Below, piece by piece: positions 21,498-31,435 of a DNA stretch of 35,670 nucleotides. The notes under the pieces are model-generated. The model did not search any database. It saw nothing but the letters and a program-made list of their open reading frames with translations, and was not told the origin of the DNA. Source of the stretch: a bacterium (GTDB lineage: Bacteria > Armatimonadota > UBA5829); the NCBI GenBank assembly GCA_021373255.1, contig JAJFTD010000080.1, positions 1-35,670 on the forward strand, read 5' to 3'. Positions within the stretch are counted from its first letter, which is position 1. Each line of letters starts with the position of its first letter. Made by a program: the position numbers and the translations under genes.

Positions 21498-21526
21498 TTG
21501 CCATAGTCGCGTCTGCCTGTTAAAAT
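21498..21526 (+). promoter_or_regulatory. Promoter of the five-gene pyrimidine operon
   Basis: TTGCCA (21498-21503) and TAAAAT (21521-21526) are 17 nt apart. The start near 21533 gives a 20-nt leader. No other clear promoter is seen before 25675, so the unit probably runs from here. Confidence 0.6.
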
Positions 21527-21553
21527 TATTGAAGTGTATGTTGTGAGGTTACA

Positions 21554-22000
21554 ATGCCTGAACGCCCTTCATTTGATGAGATTTATATGGAAGTGGTTGA
21601 TACCATCGCCAGGCGTTCCACGTGTCTGCGAAAACACGTTGGCGCGGTGGTGACTATCGATCATAGGATTCTCTCGCACGGCTACAATGGTGTCCCCACG
21701 GGGCACGAGCATTGCTGTGACACAGGTCAATGTCTTAAAGATCGCGCTGGTACCGAGGAGTTCAAAGTATGCGTGCACGCGGAGCAGAACGCTATATGCC
21801 AGTGCGCAAAGCGTGGGCTGGCTGTGAGCGGGGCTACACTTTATGTGAATGCCGATGTATGCATCACATGCGCTAAGTTGATTGTGTCCTGCGAGATTGC
21901 GAGGGTGGTGGTGCGACGCGACCACAAGGGAACCTCGGACGGTATCGATCTCCTTCGCAAGTGTGGGATAGATGTGGTAGAGTGGCTGAATGCCTCATAA
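21554..22000 (+). CDS. comEB: dCMP deaminase-like (ComEB-type) zinc enzyme
   Basis: A 148-residue member of the deoxycytidylate deaminase family. KHVGAVVTIDHRILSHGYNGVPTG is the typical nucleotide-binding start. Zinc ligands are His75 in VCVHAEQNAI, with the proton-shuttling Glu77, and Cys103/Cys106 in DVCITCAKL. The extra Cys/His set CCDTGQC (54-60) occurs in ComEB-type dCMP deaminases. The product of dCMP deamination is dUMP, the substrate of thymidylate synthase. GAGGT lies 4 nt before the ATG. It is the first gene of the operon and overlaps the HAD gene by 11 nt. Hydroxymethyl-dCMP or other cytosine nucleotides are alternative substrates. Confidence 0.87.
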   Translation: MPERPSFDEIYMEVVDTIARRSTCLRKHVGAVVTIDHRILSHGYNGVPTGHEHCCDTGQCLKDRAGTEEFKVCVHAEQNAICQCAKRGLAVSGATLYVNADVCITCAKLIVSCEIARVVVRRDHKGTSDGIDLLRKCGIDVVEWLNAS

Positions 22001-22709
22001 TATTTCACAGATCAAGGCTGCCATTTTTGACATAGGCGCAACGCTTGTCACCGGGCCGCCGGTAGCCCCAAACAAAGTCATAGCATCGCTGATCGATGGC
22101 GCAACTGCGGCTGATGTATCATCGGTCATTATGACCACTGAGATCCAGTCGGCTGAGCATGCGTGCAGCATACTCGAAAAGCGATTCGGCAGGCTGAGCG
22201 GCGAGGCCGTGATGGCTGTGTGCGAACTTTGGAAGTCGCAGTCCACTGCCCCCGAAGCCTTAGGTGGCGCGGCGGAAACTGTGCTCACCATCAAGAATCG
22301 CGGGCTTAAAATCGGGCTGCTGTCAGATATATGGAGCCCATATTACGCTGGGGTCGAGAGAGTGCTGCCTGAGGTTGTTGAAGCGTCGGATGCCATAGTG
22401 CTTAGCTGCAGGACTGGTGTGCGAAAGCCTGACACGAGCAATTTCCGAACGGCTATAGACGCGCTTGGCGTGGAAGCGAGCGAGGCGTTGATGGTCGGGG
22501 ACACTTACACGCACGACATCCTGCCGGCGCTGGAGTTGGGAATGAAAGCCGTATGGGTGCTTGCCCGGCCGGAGAGGGAATCGGAGTCGATTATTCGTAT
22601 ATTGAATGGCGAGGTGCCAGTGCCTACTATTACAGTGGCAAGCGTTGGTGAGGTTGCTTCGCTGAGGATTTTGAACGTAGATATGCTGACACAGGAGAGG
22701 GTTGGATGA
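21990..22709 (+). CDS. HAD-superfamily hydrolase
   Basis: A 239-residue HAD subfamily IA-like protein. Motif I is AAIFDIGATLVTG: the nucleophile Asp14 is present, but the second Asp of DxDxT is replaced by Gly16. This FDxGxTL variant is seen in several HAD branches. Motif II is IGLLSDIWS, motif III has the Lys of RKPDTSNF, and motif IV is MVGDTYTHDI. A helical cap lies between motifs I and II. In the operon it follows a dCMP deaminase and precedes the unknown DGxHR protein (ATGA overlap), so a nucleotide or modified-nucleotide phosphatase is a fair guess. The substrate cannot be read from the sequence. Confidence 0.82.
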   Translation: MPHNISQIKAAIFDIGATLVTGPPVAPNKVIASLIDGATAADVSSVIMTTEIQSAEHACSILEKRFGRLSGEAVMAVCELWKSQSTAPEALGGAAETVLTIKNRGLKIGLLSDIWSPYYAGVERVLPEVVEASDAIVLSCRTGVRKPDTSNFRTAIDALGVEASEALMVGDTYTHDILPALELGMKAVWVLARPERESESIIRILNGEVPVPTITVASVGEVASLRILNVDMLTQERVG

Positions 22710-23320
22710 ATATCGAGAGAGTTGAGCAGCACAGTGTTGAGGAATTATTGGCGAATATGCGGCGGGTTGGGATGCTTACGCATCCTGAGGACTATCCCTA
22801 TGAGAATGCGCAGATCGAGCTGGTGTCGCTGCACACTAACGAGATCGCCCCGGCGCAGCGTTATGTTCTCAATTGCGAGCTTATGAAGGTGCGCGACCTC
22901 CAGTGGGCGTTGCAGGAGCATGGTGTTGATCTTTTCAAGCTGGATGGGTATGCCTCAATCTGGCTTGAGGGTTATGATGATCCGATTGACGTTCTGCCAC
23001 CGGTGGTCGAAGAGTCTGAAGAGGCTGATGGAAGCGTGGTGAGAATCCTCAACGATGGTATGCACCGCGTCTATCTCGCTCGAATGGAGCGTACGCCTAT
23101 ACAGGTGGTCTATGCGCGAAACGTGCCTAAGCAGTATCCATATTATGCGTTCCCACTGGTAAATGGCTGGGCGGATGTGGAGATCATGCAGGATCTGCCC
23201 GAGGGATACATAAAGAAGTGGCACCGGATTAAGAATTACAAGAGCCTTTATAGGAACTTCAACAGCGGCTTCCAGAACGTCGGTGGGCCCAGAGGTCATT
23301 TCACCAATGCAGGAAAGTGA
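22706..23320 (+). CDS. Unrecognised protein with ParB/Srx-like DGxHR motif
   Basis: A 204-residue soluble protein of no family I can name with certainty. Residues 113-135, ending with NDGMHRVYLARMERTPIQVVYA, look like the ParB/sulfiredoxin-fold motif D-G-x-H-R followed by a helix and a hydrophobic strand (Asp117, His120, Arg121). That fold includes DNA-binding partition proteins and phosphotransfer enzymes such as the archaeal free-serine kinase SerK. The N-terminal half has long helices and an EEADGS turn. The C-terminal 60 residues are rich in aromatic and basic residues (YPYYAFPLVNGWAD; KKWHRIKNYKSLYRNF). GAGAGG lies 5 nt before the ATG, which overlaps the HAD stop by 4 nt. Its 3' end overlaps the next gene by 14 nt. 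It is embedded in the nucleotide operon. Confidence 0.6.
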   Translation: MNIERVEQHSVEELLANMRRVGMLTHPEDYPYENAQIELVSLHTNEIAPAQRYVLNCELMKVRDLQWALQEHGVDLFKLDGYASIWLEGYDDPIDVLPPVVEESEEADGSVVRILNDGMHRVYLARMERTPIQVVYARNVPKQYPYYAFPLVNGWADVEIMQDLPEGYIKKWHRIKNYKSLYRNFNSGFQNVGGPRGHFTNAGK

Positions 23321-24755
23321 TCTGGAGTTCATCCCGCTGCACTTCGGCAGCAAGCTCAGAGTAATAAACCCCCACGCACGGCTGGGGGTTACCACGCTTT
23401 GGAGCAAGATTGAGTTTGTGGAGCAGGTTCTCGCTGATCTCGGCGTGGACCTTTCTCCCGAAACGTCAAAAATCGCCGTCATCGGCAACCTCTACGGCAA
23501 TGGCATCCCGCACATGCTCCGCAACCTGCTTTACAACCCACAGATTCGAGACCTCGTGATCTGCGGAGCTGACAGGTCTGGTTCGGCGGATGAGTTTATC
23601 TCCTTCTTTGAGAACGGCCTGGAGAAGGCGCGAAGCCTGGGCGAGGAAGTCACGAAGATTGCTGGGACTAATCGGATTATAGACGATATGGTTACGCCAG
23701 ATGACTTTGCAGTGCGGCCGAATATTTTCAGGTTTGGCGATCTGCGTGATAAAGATTCTCGCGCAAATTTATACAAGCATATACAATCTCTCGACGTGAA
23801 CGAGGCACCGAGGGGTGACAGGCTTCTAGTTGAACTTCCCCAGGTGAGCGTTTCCCACTACCCCAGTGAGCCTCGTAACCACAATATTATAAAAGACACG
23901 CCGCTGGACGCGTGGCGGGAACTGGTGTTCAGGCTGGTGCGGTTCGGGCATCTGGTGCATCTGCGTAAGGGTGATAGGCAGGAGCTTCAAAACGTCCGTG
24001 TAGTGGTGTGCCGTCCACAGGTTGAGGACGAGGAGAGTCTAAGTCAGTATAACTTCTTACGCTCTGATCTTATACAGTATCAGCATGATATGCTCCTCGG
24101 ACCGCTACCGGAAGATCAGCCCTACACCTATGGAAACCGCATACGGGAGTATTATGGGTTCGATGCACTGATGAAGTTCGCGGAGCGTCTCAAGGCAAAC
24201 CCGCACGACCGGGACTGCTACCTCGCTCTGTGGGACAGTCACACGGACATCGACGCCGACGATGCGCCGTGCCTGGTGTCGTTATTTTTCAGAGCGTTCG
24301 ACGATCAGCTCACGCTCACAGCCACTTACCGGACGCACAACGCGCTGGATGCGTGGCTCAAGAATGTATACGGGCTCATGCATGCCCAAGAGATCGTTGC
24401 GAACGAGGCAGGGTTGCCGGTTGGCCCGCTTACCGTGATCAGCCATTCCATAAGCGTGGACCCGTCGAAATACGACCAGGCAATGCGTGTAGCGAACTCC
24501 AAAGGTTTCTCGCTGGATATGGACGCGAATGGGCAGTTTATTGTGAGCGTTGAAGACGAAGAGATTGTGGTCCGGCATATGGATGACAATGGCGTAATGC
24601 TCCACGAATATCGCTCAAAGAAGGCCGAACGAATACAGCACGAAATCAACCGCGACTGTGCCATCTCAGACATCAATCACGCAATGTATATCGGGCGACA
24701 ACTCGCGAAGGCGGAGAACTGCTTGAGAACCGGAGAGATCTTCGAGGAAGGTTAG
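23307..24755 (+). CDS. MtrA/DUF4346-like domain fused to thymidylate-synthase-like domain
   Basis: About 482 residues. The ATG at 23307 (AGAGG 11 nt upstream) is preferred over a GTG at 23283. Residues about 45-150 (IAVIGNLYGNGIPHMLRNLLYNPQIRDLVICGADRSG and ISFFENGLE) resemble DUF4346 and methanogen MtrA-like domains. Residues about 250-390 read as a thymidylate-synthase fold: YTYGNRIREYYG (substrate loop), NPHDRDCYLALWDSHTD (the DxR...W block), the catalytic Cys322 in DDAPCLVSLFF, Arg342 in TATYRTHNALDAW and Asn353 in WLKNVYGL. The last is the position that favours dUMP in ThyA. About 100 further residues, containing MDANGQFIVSVEDEEIVVRHMDDNG, form a C-terminal extension. Its place after a dCMP deaminase strongly suggests a dTMP or related pyrimidine synthase. 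Confidence 0.72.
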   Translation: MQESDLEFIPLHFGSKLRVINPHARLGVTTLWSKIEFVEQVLADLGVDLSPETSKIAVIGNLYGNGIPHMLRNLLYNPQIRDLVICGADRSGSADEFISFFENGLEKARSLGEEVTKIAGTNRIIDDMVTPDDFAVRPNIFRFGDLRDKDSRANLYKHIQSLDVNEAPRGDRLLVELPQVSVSHYPSEPRNHNIIKDTPLDAWRELVFRLVRFGHLVHLRKGDRQELQNVRVVVCRPQVEDEESLSQYNFLRSDLIQYQHDMLLGPLPEDQPYTYGNRIREYYGFDALMKFAERLKANPHDRDCYLALWDSHTDIDADDAPCLVSLFFRAFDDQLTLTATYRTHNALDAWLKNVYGLMHAQEIVANEAGLPVGPLTVISHSISVDPSKYDQAMRVANSKGFSLDMDANGQFIVSVEDEEIVVRHMDDNGVMLHEYRSKKAERIQHEINRDCAISDINHAMYIGRQLAKAENCLRTGEIFEEG

Positions 24756-24763
24756 CCCCTGTA

Positions 24764-25672
24764 ATGCCAAGAGATGACTTGAAGAAAAGAATCGAGGCGC
24801 TCAACAAGAAGCCCCTTAAGAATGTACCTGAAGCGAAGCAAACCGCGAAGCCTGCTGTCGTCACCACTGAGCGGGTTGCATATTCACGCAGCGTCCCCAC
24901 CCTGACTGCCAACCCACAACCCATCCAGCCCAGCAAATCGGGAAAGCCTGTTAAGTTGGAAGACGTGGTGGATGGGATTATTACGCAAGCGCCTGTGGGA
25001 CCGGGATATTACCTTGTCGAGATGCCCGCAACATCACTCGATGCCTGCGCAGGTGTGATGTATGAGCAGTTTTTGAGGCTGACCGGCTACCCTGACGGAA
25101 CCGCTGTGGAGCGACTGGCACGCGCGTGTAAGTCAGAATCGATTGCACCTGAAGAGATTATTTTTATGGACCTCGAAACCACCGGGCTCAGCATGACACC
25201 ATTGTTTCTCATCGGGACGATGGAAGTCACGCCTGATGGGCTGCACTTCAAACAGTATTTCGCACGAGATTATTCTGAAGAGGTCAGTATTATTACAGCC
25301 TATGCCGAGCGCATGCGCAGTGCGCGGATGGTGGTAACATTTAACGGCAAGAGCTTTGATGTACCGTTTTTATCTACCCGTGCGCTGGCGGCCGGGGTGA
25401 AATGCCCCGCTCCTGAGTTCCATCTTGACCTGCTTCACGAGAGCCGCAGAGTCTACAAGCACGACCTGCCTAACTGCAGGCTCCAAACACTGGAGCAGAT
25501 GGTCTGCGGGCGGTGCAGAGAAGATGATATCCCCGGCGCTGAGATACCGCAGGCCTATCACGACTTCGTTCGCTCGGGAGACGCAGGCAAGATAGCGCAA
25601 ATACTTTACCACAACCTCTACGATCTCCTCACAATGGCCGATCTCATGCACCGGATGTGGCATCGGGACTAG
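24764..25672 (+). CDS. YprB-like RNase H-fold exonuclease
   Basis: A 302-residue protein of the RNase_H_2/YprB type. A disordered, Lys/Pro-rich N-terminus of about 70 residues precedes the nuclease domain. Its acidic residues are Asp136 and Glu138 in IIFMDLETTGLSMTPLFLIG, Asp199 in VVTFNGKSFDVPFLSTRA and Asp287 in YHNLYDLLTMADL, which together form a two-metal DEDD-like site. Family members are presumed 3'-5' exonucleases for DNA or RNA. A cysteine pair in MVCGRCREDD sits in a loop. It begins 8 nt after the thymidylate-synthase-like gene and ends the operon. Confidence 0.85.
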   Translation: MPRDDLKKRIEALNKKPLKNVPEAKQTAKPAVVTTERVAYSRSVPTLTANPQPIQPSKSGKPVKLEDVVDGIITQAPVGPGYYLVEMPATSLDACAGVMYEQFLRLTGYPDGTAVERLARACKSESIAPEEIIFMDLETTGLSMTPLFLIGTMEVTPDGLHFKQYFARDYSEEVSIITAYAERMRSARMVVTFNGKSFDVPFLSTRALAAGVKCPAPEFHLDLLHESRRVYKHDLPNCRLQTLEQMVCGRCREDDIPGAEIPQAYHDFVRSGDAGKIAQILYHNLYDLLTMADLMHRMWHRD

Positions 25673-27305: not shown

Positions 27306-30140
27306 CTAATTGAGCTGCCGAATTTCGGACATGTCGGCGCAGTGGAAGCCTGCGCCGCACTCGCTGAGGTGCGACCTCCACTTCTCGACCTCATGCGGCT
27401 GAGCGGTGAAGTAGAAAACCTGTCTGCCTGTGCGAGTGAGAGCTGTTACAGCTTGGATTATCTTGTCTGCGCGATCATCATCGCTTGTGGCGAGGGTTTC
27501 ATCAAGAATAATCGGCAGTTTCACACCTTGTTCCTGCTGTTCCACGAATGCGACTCGAACAGCAAGCAGAAGCTGGATGCGAGTCCCACTGGAGAGTTCG
27601 TCCAGCGTAAGCGACCGGTTCCTGCGCGTATCGACTGCCCTAAATGCCACTTTTCTATGATCGAAATCCAGCTTGTAGTCATTATTTGTGATTTCGGCGA
27701 ACAGCTCGCCTGCCCTGTTGAATACCGCAGGCAAGCTCGCGCGCTCAGCTTCACGCTTCACGTAATCGGCCAGCGCCCAACCTGCAGCGGCAGCGTAACC
27801 TTTGGAACGCTCATTACGTAGGACATCTCGGCAAGTTTCAAGGTCAGATATCGCGTTTGCGAGGTCGCAGCTCTGGCGCTCCATCTCTACCTCGGTCTCG
27901 ATTTTAAGGATGGCATCGTGCGCATCGGAACGTTGATTGGCAATAATCTGTAAGTTGTCTATTTGACTTTGAATATCTGATGCAGGGGATATTCTCAAAA
28001 GCGAGATAATCTGGGAGATGTTGTCGGAGGCAGAGTTGGTATTTGATTGATACCAGTCTATGGCTGCATCGGAGAACAGAGATGCTGTATCGCTCAGCCT
28101 GCGCTCGCAGGATGCAAGCACTGCTTGACGGTTACGCAGCGTTTCCTTTGCCGTGGTAAACGCCGCGAGGTCGGTAAGGAGGTTTGTCACAGTGACCTCA
28201 TCATCAACGACTGTGCCTATACGATTATAGAATGCATCGCGCTCAGTGTCTGATCGGAAGATTCCCTTTCGAGCTTCACCAATGACAGCCACTGCGCGGC
28301 GGATATCGGATCTGGCTTTATCGAATGCCTGTTTCCTTTGGTCCAGGTCGCGAATGGTCGCCAGGGCAGCGGCAGGGTTATCAGCCGGATCGATGTTATA
28401 CCGGGCAAGAATTTCATTGATGGCGTTTTTGCAGGTGAAGGCATCCTGCTCGATGCGTTTGCATCGCTCTCTCTGCCCCTCGGCTTCGTCGCCCGCTGCA
28501 AGCCACCGGTTAATAGCTTCAGCAAAGATGATGAGATCGACCCTATCGATAGAAGGTGCAATACCAAAGCGCGCCAGCAGGTCACGGGCGCGCTGGTCGA
28601 GCGCCTTTTTACATTCATCAAGCTCGCGCAGTTTGGGATCGAGTGATTGCCAGTATGTAAATCGCTCGAGCTTGGTGCAGAGGGTTTGAAGCTCCGTTAT
28701 ACGTTCGCGCACGCTGTCCTCAGTCCAGGTCTTGGGGCCTTGAACAGGGAGTTCGGTGAAGCTCAACTTGATTGACTCACGCTCACCTGGCTTGGAACTC
28801 CCTCGCCGCATAAGAAATATAAGCATTATAGCAACCGATATCAGCGATATAACGCACAATCCCGGGTTCACCAGCAGCGCGAGTGCAACACCGAGACAGG
28901 CTGCACCGCCGCATGCTGAAGCGACCAGCCAATGTATGCCGTGCTGCCTTGTAGTTGATTCGGGGCGGCTGAGCCATTGCATCAACAGGAATAGGGCGTC
29001 ACGCGCTTTATAGAGGTTGGTCGAGGTGTCAGTATCCCCTACCCAACTCTTTACGGCGCTCTGTGCATCGTAATCGGCGTTGAGTTGGGTTGCTTCTTGG
29101 GCGTAATCTAGTAATTCCTGAACGACTTCCGGCGAATCAACGATGGAGCTAAGCCTGCTTTCGTCAATCTCATCAGCGATGCTCTGCAAGGCATTTCGCT
29201 GCCTGCCCTCTACAGATGCCAGGTTGGATTGCTCCTGTTTGAGCTGCATAGCCAATCGCTGCCACTCAGCGTGGTGGGAGTTTAGTTCGTTAATGTGAGA
29301 GCCGGGGACGCCGCCGATGGGGAGAGCGCACGAGTTGAGTTGCCGGCGCGCCGAATGAAACGCATCTACGGCTTCTGACTTCTTTTTGAATAACTCCGCG
29401 TGCTGGGTTTTCAACCTTTGGAGGGTTTCGGCATCGTTTGGAAGTAAATTATCCATTCGAGCATCGAACCTGTCCAGTGCGGCTTCGGCATCAAGCATTT
29501 CAGCAGACCTGGCAGCACACTCCAGCGCCTCATTTAATATTTTGAGCTGGCTGATCGCCATATCCGCTTGGGCACGCCGCGCCCGAAGGCGTTCAAGAGA
29601 AGATTCACGATTATTTAGTTCACCTTCGGCTTTTCTTATCGTTTCAACGGTATCGCTGTGCTTTTTGAGTTCATTTTTATGATTGGTCGGTTTGTATGGA
29701 TCGCTGCGATACTGCAGTGCGGCTGCGGCGCTGTCGAGATCGTATCCACCTGAAGCTGCTTGATGAATCGCACGGGCGAACTCGGCGTTGTCACTATTGA
29801 TTAGATCGGGGAGCGCGAGCGTATAGGCCTGCATTCGTTCTTCAGGCACGGTATGCGGGCAGGAAGCCTCTTCTGTTCCACCGATGATATAACTGCCACG
29901 GCGCTTGTGGAGGACAACGCGGCACTCACAACCATCCAGGTAAAAACTCGCGGTGGCTTCATCTTCTGATCCTGCTTTGCTCGGCCACAGTAGGCCGGTG
30001 ATGGCTCGGGCAGTGGTGCTCTTACCGGAGGCGTTGGGACCGGAGATGATATTGATTCCACTGCTCAAGCCGTCCAGAGTGAAACGGTCGCAGCCCGGCA
30101 TGCGCTCGATATCCAGCCGCGTAAACCACCACGCATTCAT
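27306..30140 (-). CDS. YhaN/SbcC-like Rad50-type ATPase with a central membrane hairpin
   Basis: A 944-residue SMC/Rad50-like protein. The N-terminal Walker A is GPNASGKST at 34-42, preceded by GLSSGINIIS. Long coiled coils occupy about 160-400 and 460-830. A hydrophobic pair at about 405-445 (LVASACGGAACLGVALALL and VISLISVAIMLIFLM) sits at the middle, where other Rad50 proteins have a zinc hook. The C-terminus has the signature LTLDELSSGTRIQLLLAVRVAF and Walker B LPIILDETLATSDDDRA. Membrane-hairpin architecture is typical of YhaN. With its Mre11-like partner just upstream (ATGA overlap) it should form a nuclease complex that acts on DNA ends, possibly at the membrane. Confidence 0.88.
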   Translation of the reverse strand: MNAWWFTRLDIERMPGCDRFTLDGLSSGINIISGPNASGKSTTARAITGLLWPSKAGSEDEATASFYLDGCECRVVLHKRRGSYIIGGTEEASCPHTVPEERMQAYTLALPDLINSDNAEFARAIHQAASGGYDLDSAAAALQYRSDPYKPTNHKNELKKHSDTVETIRKAEGELNNRESSLERLRARRAQADMAISQLKILNEALECAARSAEMLDAEAALDRFDARMDNLLPNDAETLQRLKTQHAELFKKKSEAVDAFHSARRQLNSCALPIGGVPGSHINELNSHHAEWQRLAMQLKQEQSNLASVEGRQRNALQSIADEIDESRLSSIVDSPEVVQELLDYAQEATQLNADYDAQSAVKSWVGDTDTSTNLYKARDALFLLMQWLSRPESTTRQHGIHWLVASACGGAACLGVALALLVNPGLCVISLISVAIMLIFLMRRGSSKPGERESIKLSFTELPVQGPKTWTEDSVRERITELQTLCTKLERFTYWQSLDPKLRELDECKKALDQRARDLLARFGIAPSIDRVDLIIFAEAINRWLAAGDEAEGQRERCKRIEQDAFTCKNAINEILARYNIDPADNPAAALATIRDLDQRKQAFDKARSDIRRAVAVIGEARKGIFRSDTERDAFYNRIGTVVDDEVTVTNLLTDLAAFTTAKETLRNRQAVLASCERRLSDTASLFSDAAIDWYQSNTNSASDNISQIISLLRISPASDIQSQIDNLQIIANQRSDAHDAILKIETEVEMERQSCDLANAISDLETCRDVLRNERSKGYAAAAGWALADYVKREAERASLPAVFNRAGELFAEITNNDYKLDFDHRKVAFRAVDTRRNRSLTLDELSSGTRIQLLLAVRVAFVEQQEQGVKLPIILDETLATSDDDRADKIIQAVTALTRTGRQVFYFTAQPHEVEKWRSHLSECGAGFHCADMSEIRQLN

Positions 30141-31435
30141 CGCGCCACCTCTTCACTCCGCAGCGCCGCGAGGAGGTTCCTGCACTCCTGCTTGAGAAGC
30201 GATATCACCAAATCATCGTCAGGCACACAGTCCTCAGAACTTCCGGTGGCTGAGTCGCGTATCTGCATGTAGACCTTGGTTGAATGCACCTCGCGAACCT
30301 TGGCTGCTACGCTCTCAAGGAGTTCGGGGTAGCTTTCCCGCACGGTGCCGTTATCGATGGAGATGAGCACGCGTGCCAGGGTGCCCATCGCGTCGGCGCA
30401 CTTGGCAAGAGCTAGTAAATCGATTATCGGAGTAGTGGCAATGTCGATGCGTTCAATATCAAGTTGGACATCCCCACGCCGGAACGGCTGTTCACGGAGA
30501 GCTTCCACCACACCATCCAGATCACCGTGGGCATCCGTCTCGCCCTCAAGCCTTACTCTGCACGAGATCACACGAAGGGCGTCGCCTGTCACCATATCAA
30601 GTTCAACTTCCAGAGCTTCGGATGCACGATTTTGACATTCCAACGCCGTTTCGCATCTGCTGACATCCACAGGCACTACACAATAAGTAACTGAAGATAT
30701 TGGGACTTGTATGGGGCGCGATAGCCTGCCATTGGAAAGCTCGATAATCCATGGACCATGCATGCCAGGTTCTTCGGGATGCATTGCCTGAGGAGAGCCT
30801 GGGTTTAGGATCATCGGGCGGTTGTCGGACGGGTAATCGTTCGAGAGATGAATATGGCCCAGAAGCCACATATCCACCGGCTGAGCTCGAAGATCATCTA
30901 ACGGGACAGGAGCATACACGCTTGCCGATGTGCCTGCGTCCGCGTGCAGGATGGCTATCGTGGGCGTTTCAGTGGAACTAAGACTGGGAAAGCAGCGAAG
31001 GGGGTTCTCTTTTACCTCACCACTTGGATACGACCACCCTACCAGCCTCAGGGCAGGCTTCCCATCCACATATATGCAGACCTCTTCCCACTCACCACCA
31101 GCCCCAATCAGCTTAAAGCACTCAGGGTCGAGCTCGGAGGCGATCCTGGGGAGGACATCGTAATCGTGATTACCTGCGACGGCAAAAACACGCACATTAT
31201 GCTCGGCAAGACGCCGGATGCCGTCACGAAGGGCACCATAGCCCTCATAAAGGCGGTTCTGGCGGTCCACCAGATCACCACTGAGACACACCACATCAAC
31301 GCGCTCATCATCGTCTAAAGCCAGCCGTACAATCCTGTCCCATGCAGCCGAGCAGGACAGCGTGCGCTGGTCGAGATTTGTGATCTTGGTTGATGCGCGG
31401 CCAAGGTGAAGGTCGCCTGTGCAAAGAATTCTCAA
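30137..31435 (-). CDS. YhaO/SbcD-like Mre11-family DNA nuclease
   Basis: A 432-residue calcineurin-like metallophosphoesterase. Metal ligands are visible in ILCTGDLHLG (Asp8, His10), VCLSGDLVD (Asp54), VAGNHDYD (Asn89, His90), TIAILHAD and LLGHIHLS. After the nuclease domain comes a capping domain and an acidic C-terminal tail that may bind the ATPase. Family knowledge predicts a Mn-dependent exo/endonuclease at broken or hairpin DNA ends. The start is a TTG at 31435 giving MRILCTGDLH, with GAGGGG 4 nt upstream. It is the first gene of the pair; its stop overlaps the start of the YhaN-like gene by 4 nt. Confidence 0.9.
   Translation of the reverse strand: MRILCTGDLHLGRASTKITNLDQRTLSCSAAWDRIVRLALDDDERVDVVCLSGDLVDRQNRLYEGYGALRDGIRRLAEHNVRVFAVAGNHDYDVLPRIASELDPECFKLIGAGGEWEEVCIYVDGKPALRLVGWSYPSGEVKENPLRCFPSLSSTETPTIAILHADAGTSASVYAPVPLDDLRAQPVDMWLLGHIHLSNDYPSDNRPMILNPGSPQAMHPEEPGMHGPWIIELSNGRLSRPIQVPISSVTYCVVPVDVSRCETALECQNRASEALEVELDMVTGDALRVISCRVRLEGETDAHGDLDGVVEALREQPFRRGDVQLDIERIDIATTPIIDLLALAKCADAMGTLARVLISIDNGTVRESYPELLESVAAKVREVHSTKVYMQIRDSATGSSEDCVPDDDLVISLLKQECRNLLAALRSEEVAR

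Follow-up and report, generated by a model that had tools for sequence, protein, structure and literature searches.

Organization of the locus

We analyzed a window of 35,670 nucleotides (the whole of the stretch studied; contig JAJFTD010000080.1 of assembly GCA_021373255.1) from a bacterium of the Armatimonadota. It holds a run of five genes whose products are a dCMP deaminase, a HAD phosphatase-like protein, a protein of the Parb-CE family, a fusion protein with a thymidylate synthase (TS) domain, and an exonuclease-like protein. The five open reading frames (ORFs) are confirmed at 21554-25672, all on the same strand and with no gap wider than 8 bases: the overlaps are 11 bases between g1 and g2, four between g2 and g3, and 14 between g3 and g4, and a gap of 8 bases lies between the g4 stop and the g5 start. 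The features are as follows.

21498..21526 (+): weak promoter-like site ahead of the operon (TTGCCA, spacing 17, TAAAAT, with TG before the -10; 10/12 match)
21554..22000 (+): g1, dCMP deaminase, 148 residues, ComEB-like, with zinc motifs HAEQN and CxxC (profile matches)
21990..22709 (+): g2, HAD-IA phosphatase-like protein, 239 residues (profile matches, alignment)
22706..23320 (+): g3, Parb-CE protein, 204 residues, ParB/sulfiredoxin/serine-kinase fold (PF24392, 4e-61; AlphaFold2 model; fold matches)
23054..23068 (+): DGMHR motif of Parb-CE, residues 117-121 (invariant in a 40-sequence alignment)
23307..24755 (+): g4, MtrA-like/TS/PterinBD-DUF4346 fusion, 482 residues, ATG at 23307, predicted thymidylate synthase of the cell (profiles, structure)
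23364..23786 (+): MtrA-like Rossmann domain of the fusion, residues ~20-160, without the B12-ligating His (weak MtrA similarity, alignment)
23892..24503 (+): TS-fold domain of the fusion, residues ~196-399 (VIA-align structure matches)
24270..24272 (+): codon of catalytic Cys322, E. coli C146 (invariant in 47/47 fusions)
24519..24743 (+): PterinBD-DUF4346 domain, residues 405-479, after a shortened TS domain (PF14251, 8.2e-18)
24764..25672 (+): g5, RNase_H_2 3'-5' exonuclease-like protein, 302 residues (PF13482, 8e-36)

An earlier sequence-only reading had described one promoter and five linked genes. The ORFs, their shared strand, and their tight packing stand, and the promoter-like site is present, but such sites are no commoner than chance (four found against 4.4 expected in shuffled sequence). 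The linkage of the operon is nonetheless not a matter of chance, since the same first four genes are grouped in distant phyla as well. The five genes do not form a single unit: the fusion and Parb-CE make up a conserved core, which the deaminase and HAD protein often accompany as accessories, and the exonuclease is peculiar to the window's family. Profile matches bear out the families assigned to the deaminase, HAD protein, TS-like fusion, and RNase H-fold exonuclease, and the protein formerly called DGxHR proves to be Parb-CE, with the motif DGMHR.

A thymidylate synthase-like fusion with an altered active site

Residues 200-384 of the fusion match the methanogen-type TS model TIGR03283 (9e-32, 110.2 bits, below the equivalog cut-off of 174.55), and residues 405-479 match PterinBD-DUF4346 (65.4 bits, passing the gathering cut-off of 29.6), while the N-terminus (residues ~20-110) has weak similarity to MtrA. 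ThyX (PF02511) is not among the Pfam matches of the protein. In AlphaFold2 models (pLDDT 91 for the fusion and 93 for Parb-CE), the predicted TS domain aligns with the structures of ThyA, MilA, and AfhB at VIA-align Z scores of 19-23, with a root-mean-square deviation (rmsd) of about 2.2 over about 200 residues. The closest solved structures are those of the phage dCMP hydroxylase AfhB and the CMP hydroxymethylase MilA (Z 21-23).

We mapped active-site residues onto E. coli ThyA in 47 aligned fusions, the roles of C146, N177/178, H207, Y209, R126, R127, and R166 being tabulated in the literature (PMC6005164). C146, N177, R126, R166, and Y94 are kept, the first four in 47/47; in the window's fusion the catalytic Cys, in a PC motif, is C322 and the uracil-reading Asn is N353, both of them present throughout. 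The folate-binding Asp of ThyA, D169, is by contrast replaced by Asn in all 47 Parb-CE-linked fusions (N345 in the window), and R127 is kept in only five of the 47. The ribose-binding pair H207/Y209 is lost in nearly all Parb-CE-linked fusions (Ser, Thr, or Gly at position 383; Asp, Asn, or Ser at position 385), a correspondence taken from sequence and profile alignment and not from an inspected structural superposition. A divergent fusion in a genome without Parb-CE (G466) keeps the classical motifs SRR, RSQD, and HVY (D169, R127, H207, and Y209) and scores 153.1 bits against TIGR03283, still below the cut-off. This single case suggests that the altered active site is tied to Parb-CE, and the loss in Parb-CE-linked fusions of residues kept in G466 points to an altered chemistry or substrate.

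The domains flanking the TS also occur without it, in proteins of 406, 372, and 369 residues. Compared with these, the fusion has its TS between the MtrA-like and DUF4346 domains and has lost a cobalamin ligand: His84 of MtrA (PF04208) is absent in fusions and present in the stand-alone MtrA/DUF4346 proteins, which keep the B12 His as described previously (PMC4915002). With this ligand missing, a B12-dependent fusion is disfavored. The DUF4346 domain possibly binds a pterin, a prediction that follows the name of the family, the sole source for its function. Among open papers we found none mentioning DUF4346, none reporting an assay of DUF4346, Parb-CE, or the fusion, and nothing on these fusions.

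There is some variation in architecture. Rumen Abditibacteriota encode a doubled protein of ~790 residues, in which MtrA-like/TS/DUF4346 is followed by a second TS/DUF4346 unit (L044:4026-6383, L043:6703-9075). An alphaproteobacterial metagenome-assembled genome (MAG) has a 1077-residue fusion whose TS is split by long Ala/Asn/Pro/Thr-rich low-complexity insertions, beside HAD and Parb-CE genes (L120:833-4066). In Desulfobacterota, stand-alone MtrA/DUF4346 proteins with a Cys-rich N-terminus adjoin ArsR-type regulators (L177:1169-2386, L179:5772-6881).

Parb-CE is a near-obligate partner of the fusion

The g3 product matches Parb-CE at 205.6 bits (gathering cut-off 23), and its AlphaFold2 model matches the sulfiredoxin/ParB/SerK fold (Z 6-7, Foldseek probability 0.98-1.0); a sequence search of the Protein Data Bank gave no match. 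We tested 56 genome handles, two of which (G074 and G206) are the same genome, leaving 55 distinct genomes, 54 of them with the fusion. Parb-CE is found in 54/54 fusion genomes, is not found in the remaining genome (G088), and occurs in 0/14 controls.

The same association is seen in two phylum samples that were not chosen for the fusion. In Armatimonadota, Parb-CE occurs in 14/14 fusion genomes versus 0/187 others, and in Desulfobacterota in 17/18 versus 2/229 (Fisher P about 8e-22 and 4e-23, respectively, values that overstate the evidence, since genomes related by descent are not independent samples). The fusion and Parb-CE have correlated trees (Mantel r = 0.66, 0/999 permutations). Where the fusion is located elsewhere than Parb-CE, Parb-CE is still in the genome (e.g., G066, G218, G221), and Parb-CE loci away from the fusion often include the deaminase and HAD genes (L148, L149, L159). 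Parb-CE is thus a near-obligate partner of the fusion. In the rumen Abditibacteriota, Parb-CE is fused to a C-terminal DUF6273 (L148:4743-5942, L149:4025-5218; Pfam-confirmed in L148); since the extra domain is DUF6273, we reject a doubled Parb-CE matching the doubled TS of these bacteria.

Fusion genomes and the canonical thymidylate enzymes

Nearly all organisms make thymidylate, and its synthesis is an important target for drugs. According to a comparative study from 2007, thyA or thyX is present in most bacteria, and the few exceptions, for which it names Mycoplasma hyopneumoniae and Ureaplasma parvum, have thymidine kinase as a salvage enzyme (PMC1971073). By contrast, about 50 bacteria described here, some of them free-living isolates, are without canonical thyA or thyX and share a TS fusion and an uncharacterized ParB-fold partner.

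The sequence-only reading had named a canonical thyA or thyX, together with a lack of co-occurrence of the genes in related genomes, as what would make a dedicated pathway unlikely. In the window's genome (4.19 Mb, estimated 100% complete), we find no ThyX and no PF00303 match besides the fusion, and hence no canonical ThyA. The same holds for ThyA in all 54 fusion genomes, where PF00303 matches score 17-44 bits and all but two are the fusion itself. ThyX is present in three of the 54 and dihydrofolate reductase (DHFR) in five, being absent in 49; among the controls, as expected, ThyA-bearing bacteria have DHFR and the two methanogens do not. Six isolates have neither canonical ThyA nor ThyX: Desulfofundulus, Desulfovirgula, Desulfocucumis, two Desulfacinum, and Desulfonema magnum. 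G088, the 15th and only sampled member of the window's family without the fusion, has ThyX. Thymidylate kinase is kept in at least 47 of the 54, consistent with dTMP as the product; with that kinase present, we reject Parb-CE as its replacement.

Many other Armatimonadota (L016-L031) encode a divergent TS-like protein of ~280 residues with the motifs PHTRRAQ, MRSNDAF, and FHIYGSY. These are weakly like E. coli ThyA, and we do not count them as ThyA, since they are a divergent TS type.

Distribution, gene order, and phages

Among 201 genomes of the phylum Armatimonadota, full-length fusions occur in 14 of the 15 members of the window's family and in no other genome. One scan of GTDB genomes gave 77 loci, nearly all with a full-length fusion. 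Going by record titles, carriers are found in Armatimonadota/Abditibacteriota, Desulfotomaculia (Desulfofundulus, Desulfovirgula, Desulfocucumis), Desulfobacterota, Nitrospirota, Nitrospinota, Magnetococcales, Thiotrichaceae, and Synergistaceae and in MAGs labeled Zambryskibacteria and Alphaproteobacteria, a span of about nine phyla. Co-occurrence of the genes in related genomes, which the earlier reading had made a second test, is found there and in unrelated genomes as well.

In most lineages these genes again lie side by side, in varying order. Deaminase-HAD-ParbCE-TS is found in Armatimonadota and Desulfotomaculia, HAD-ParbCE-TS in Nitrospirota, HAD-ParbCE-deaminase-TS in Desulfonema, TS-HAD-ParbCE in Magnetococcales, and ParbCE-TS-deaminase in Synergistaceae. 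A 287-kb contig classed as viral (L123) has HAD-ParbCE-deaminase-TS. On a phage contig with terminase and head proteins (L122), the fusion lies beside a class II ribonucleotide reductase and a cobalamin adenosyltransferase, and other phage contigs have Parb-CE near dCMP deaminase or cobalamin adenosyltransferase; the phage settings of the two genes are contexts of dNTP supply. The cassette on L122 (6001-11402) also includes a DNA methylase. No Parb-CE was found in INPHARED phages and plasmids.

The deaminase, HAD, and exonuclease genes

The g1 product matches the dCMP/cytidine deaminase family (PF00383, 1e-18) and scores 99 bits against the ComEB equivalog TIGR02571, below its cut-off of 219.45. 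Its zinc-binding residues H75, E77, C103, and C106 (HAE and CxxC motifs) are invariant, and orthologs adjoin the fusion in Armatimonadota, Desulfotomaculia, Desulfobacterota, Synergistota, and phage. The g2 product matches HAD (PF00702, 7e-14) and keeps D14, S112, K146-P147, D171, and D176. Its motif I is DIGxT, Gly replacing the usual second Asp two residues after the nucleophile in 26/26 aligned homologs. The HAD clade of g2 is found in 31 of the 54 fusion genomes and is missing in 23, so we regard it as an accessory and reject it as an obligate component. The g5 RNase_H_2 protein is found only beside Armatimonadota fusions; as it is seen only in the window's family, we reject it as part of the module, and it is a family-local passenger outside the wider system.

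A proposed thymidylate module and its alternatives

Gene content, co-occurrence, fold, residue pattern, and the lack of canonical ThyA and ThyX are observed for the module, and they lead us to a model that we consider probable: the fusion is the main or only dTMP-forming enzyme, with Parb-CE as a required second component. The enzyme activity, the pterin binding, and the Parb-CE reaction are what we infer. In this scheme dCMP deaminase would supply dUMP; Cys322 of the TS domain would attack C6 of dUMP, with Asn353 reading the uracil; and the one-carbon unit would come from a reduced pterin, possibly held by DUF4346. Parb-CE would carry out or enable a nucleotide-dependent step, either on that same substrate or on an intermediate, as suggested by its match to the ParB/sulfiredoxin/SerK fold, known for nucleotide binding and phosphoryl transfer, and by a TS partner whose site is altered (folate Asp lost, in most cases also the ribose-binding His/Tyr, and one phosphate Arg in many). 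dTMP would then form largely without the ThyA-DHFR cycle, and the HAD protein might serve as an optional clean-up phosphatase. More tentatively, and at less than even odds in our judgment, the pair may be a third bacterial thymidylate route besides ThyA and ThyX, chemically distinct, with a rebuilt folate/ribose site and no dihydrofolate formed. If so, the system is one that reaches across about nine phyla and is found in phages as well.

Several observations weigh against the proposed role of the fusion. Many fusion genomes are MAGs. Three genomes have both the fusion and ThyX, and DHFR is present in three of the six isolates. In the Desulfobacterota sample, no fusion was found in two genomes that have Parb-CE, and the genome of one divergent fusion has no Parb-CE. 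A natural ThyA tolerates the loss of R127 alone (PMC6005164), and dTMP synthesis by the fusion is a prediction. Divergent TS-like proteins of ~260 residues occur in four Desulfobacterota fusion genomes: a 256-residue protein (L088:3202-3972), a relative of it in Desulfonema magnum that appears to be interrupted by an intein with a LAGLIDADG-like domain (L095:2309-4078), a 259-residue relative in G235, and a different 268-residue protein in G214, with L194:1384-2163 and L193:391-1197 as further loci of such proteins. In the first two cases, both from Desulfobacterales, the gene lies immediately before the start of the module. They could be extra or alternative TSs. The PF00303 search missed two of the four, and similar proteins may have gone unseen elsewhere, including G000. 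Any claim that the fusion is the sole TS is limited by these second TS-like genes, which four genomes have and others may.

Two rivals are variants of the dTMP-synthesis reading and partly coincide with this explanation. The fusion may carry out ordinary ThyA chemistry with methylene-tetrahydrofolate or tetrahydromethanopterin, an unrecognized reductase re-reducing the dihydropterin and Parb-CE acting as a regulatory or stabilizing nucleotide-binding subunit. The kept catalytic Cys, Asn, and Arg residues agree with this, as do the methanogens, which have a related TS and also lack DHFR, and ParB folds can be NTP (nucleoside triphosphate) switches (PMC12704722). Yet in Parb-CE-linked fusions specifically, the folate Asp is gone from 47/47, nearly all have lost the ribose contacts, and most have no R127, and we think ordinary chemistry a real possibility that falls short of an even chance. 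Less likely is a two-step route in which the TS hydroxymethylates dUMP without pterin oxidation, Parb-CE phosphorylates the product, reductive loss of phosphate yields dTMP, and the HAD protein removes dead-end products. The nearest structures, those of MilA and the dCMP hydroxylase, would suit it, as would the sulfiredoxin/SerK fold of Parb-CE and the general lack of DHFR. It is weakened by the lack of a reductase linked to the module, by the 23 genomes missing HAD, and by the lack of any direct sign of a kinase reaction.

The sequence-only reading had left open an alternative dTMP route or a modified pyrimidine. The former has survived the search for thyA and thyX and the co-occurrence test. 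The latter, such as 5-hydroxymethyl or another 5-substituted deoxyuridine made for DNA, a metabolite, or phage conflict, would leave dTMP to salvage or an undetected TS. We judge it improbable, despite the structural kinship to hydroxymethylases and a hydroxylase, the HAD gene in many copies of the module, and the divergent TS-like proteins of some genomes: it lacks positive support, since thymidylate kinase is kept, phages use dNTP-supply cassettes, and a lineage (G088) swaps the system with ThyX, and free-living isolates without ThyA or ThyX carry the module. An anti-phage conflict or nucleotide-depletion system draws no support from PADLOC, whose defense models leave the fusion, HAD, and Parb-CE unmatched and match the deaminase only to the corresponding portion of a far longer model. 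Hitch-hiking in a promiscuous nucleotide-metabolism neighborhood with no dedicated pathway would explain why g5 and HAD vary between lineages, but is largely refuted by the counts, with Parb-CE co-occurring genome-wide even when nonadjacent in both phylum samples, and we consider it very improbable indeed.

If confirmed, the fusion and Parb-CE would be a new dTMP synthase system, giving functions to DUF4346 and Parb-CE, and insensitivity to DHFR-directed drugs is predicted.

Comparison with known systems

The fusion shares with E. coli ThyA (PF00303) a TS fold of ~200 residues (Z about 19, rmsd 2.4), the catalytic Cys, the uracil-reading Asn, and the phosphate Args R126 and R166. It differs in its added N-terminal MtrA-like and C-terminal DUF4346 domains, in Asn for the folate Asp169, in usually having Ser/Asp-type residues for His207/Tyr209 and no R127, and in its near-obligate Parb-CE partner and hosts mostly without DHFR. 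Methanogen-type TS, the best NCBIfam match of the TS domain, likewise has hosts without DHFR, but its model covers 201 positions without flanking domains, and the hosts of the fusion are bacteria. The MtrA/DUF4346 proteins without TS (NF002128-like, about 370-406 residues) have the same outer pair of domains in the same order, but retain the cobalamin His and have an N-terminus rich in Cys. MilA and AfhB, although nearest in structure, act on cytosine nucleotides and have no MtrA/DUF4346 domains in the aligned chains; we know of no Parb-CE partner for either. ThyX is likewise a dTMP synthase not needing DHFR, and stands in for the fusion system in G088, but is of an unrelated family and absent from most fusion genomes.

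The predicted fold of Parb-CE matches that of the ParB-fold enzymes sulfiredoxin, SerK, and SbnI, whose GxHR-type motif is like its own. The resemblance amounts to about 10% identity over about 100 residues, and Parb-CE differs in adding conserved N- and C-terminal parts and in tracking a TS.

Neighboring genes

An AAC(3)-like acetyltransferase gene (PF02522; 20358-21260, +) lies just upstream of the operon. Downstream, on the opposite strand, is a gene pair for a Rad50/SMC-like ATPase and an Mre11-like phosphoesterase (27306-31435, -).

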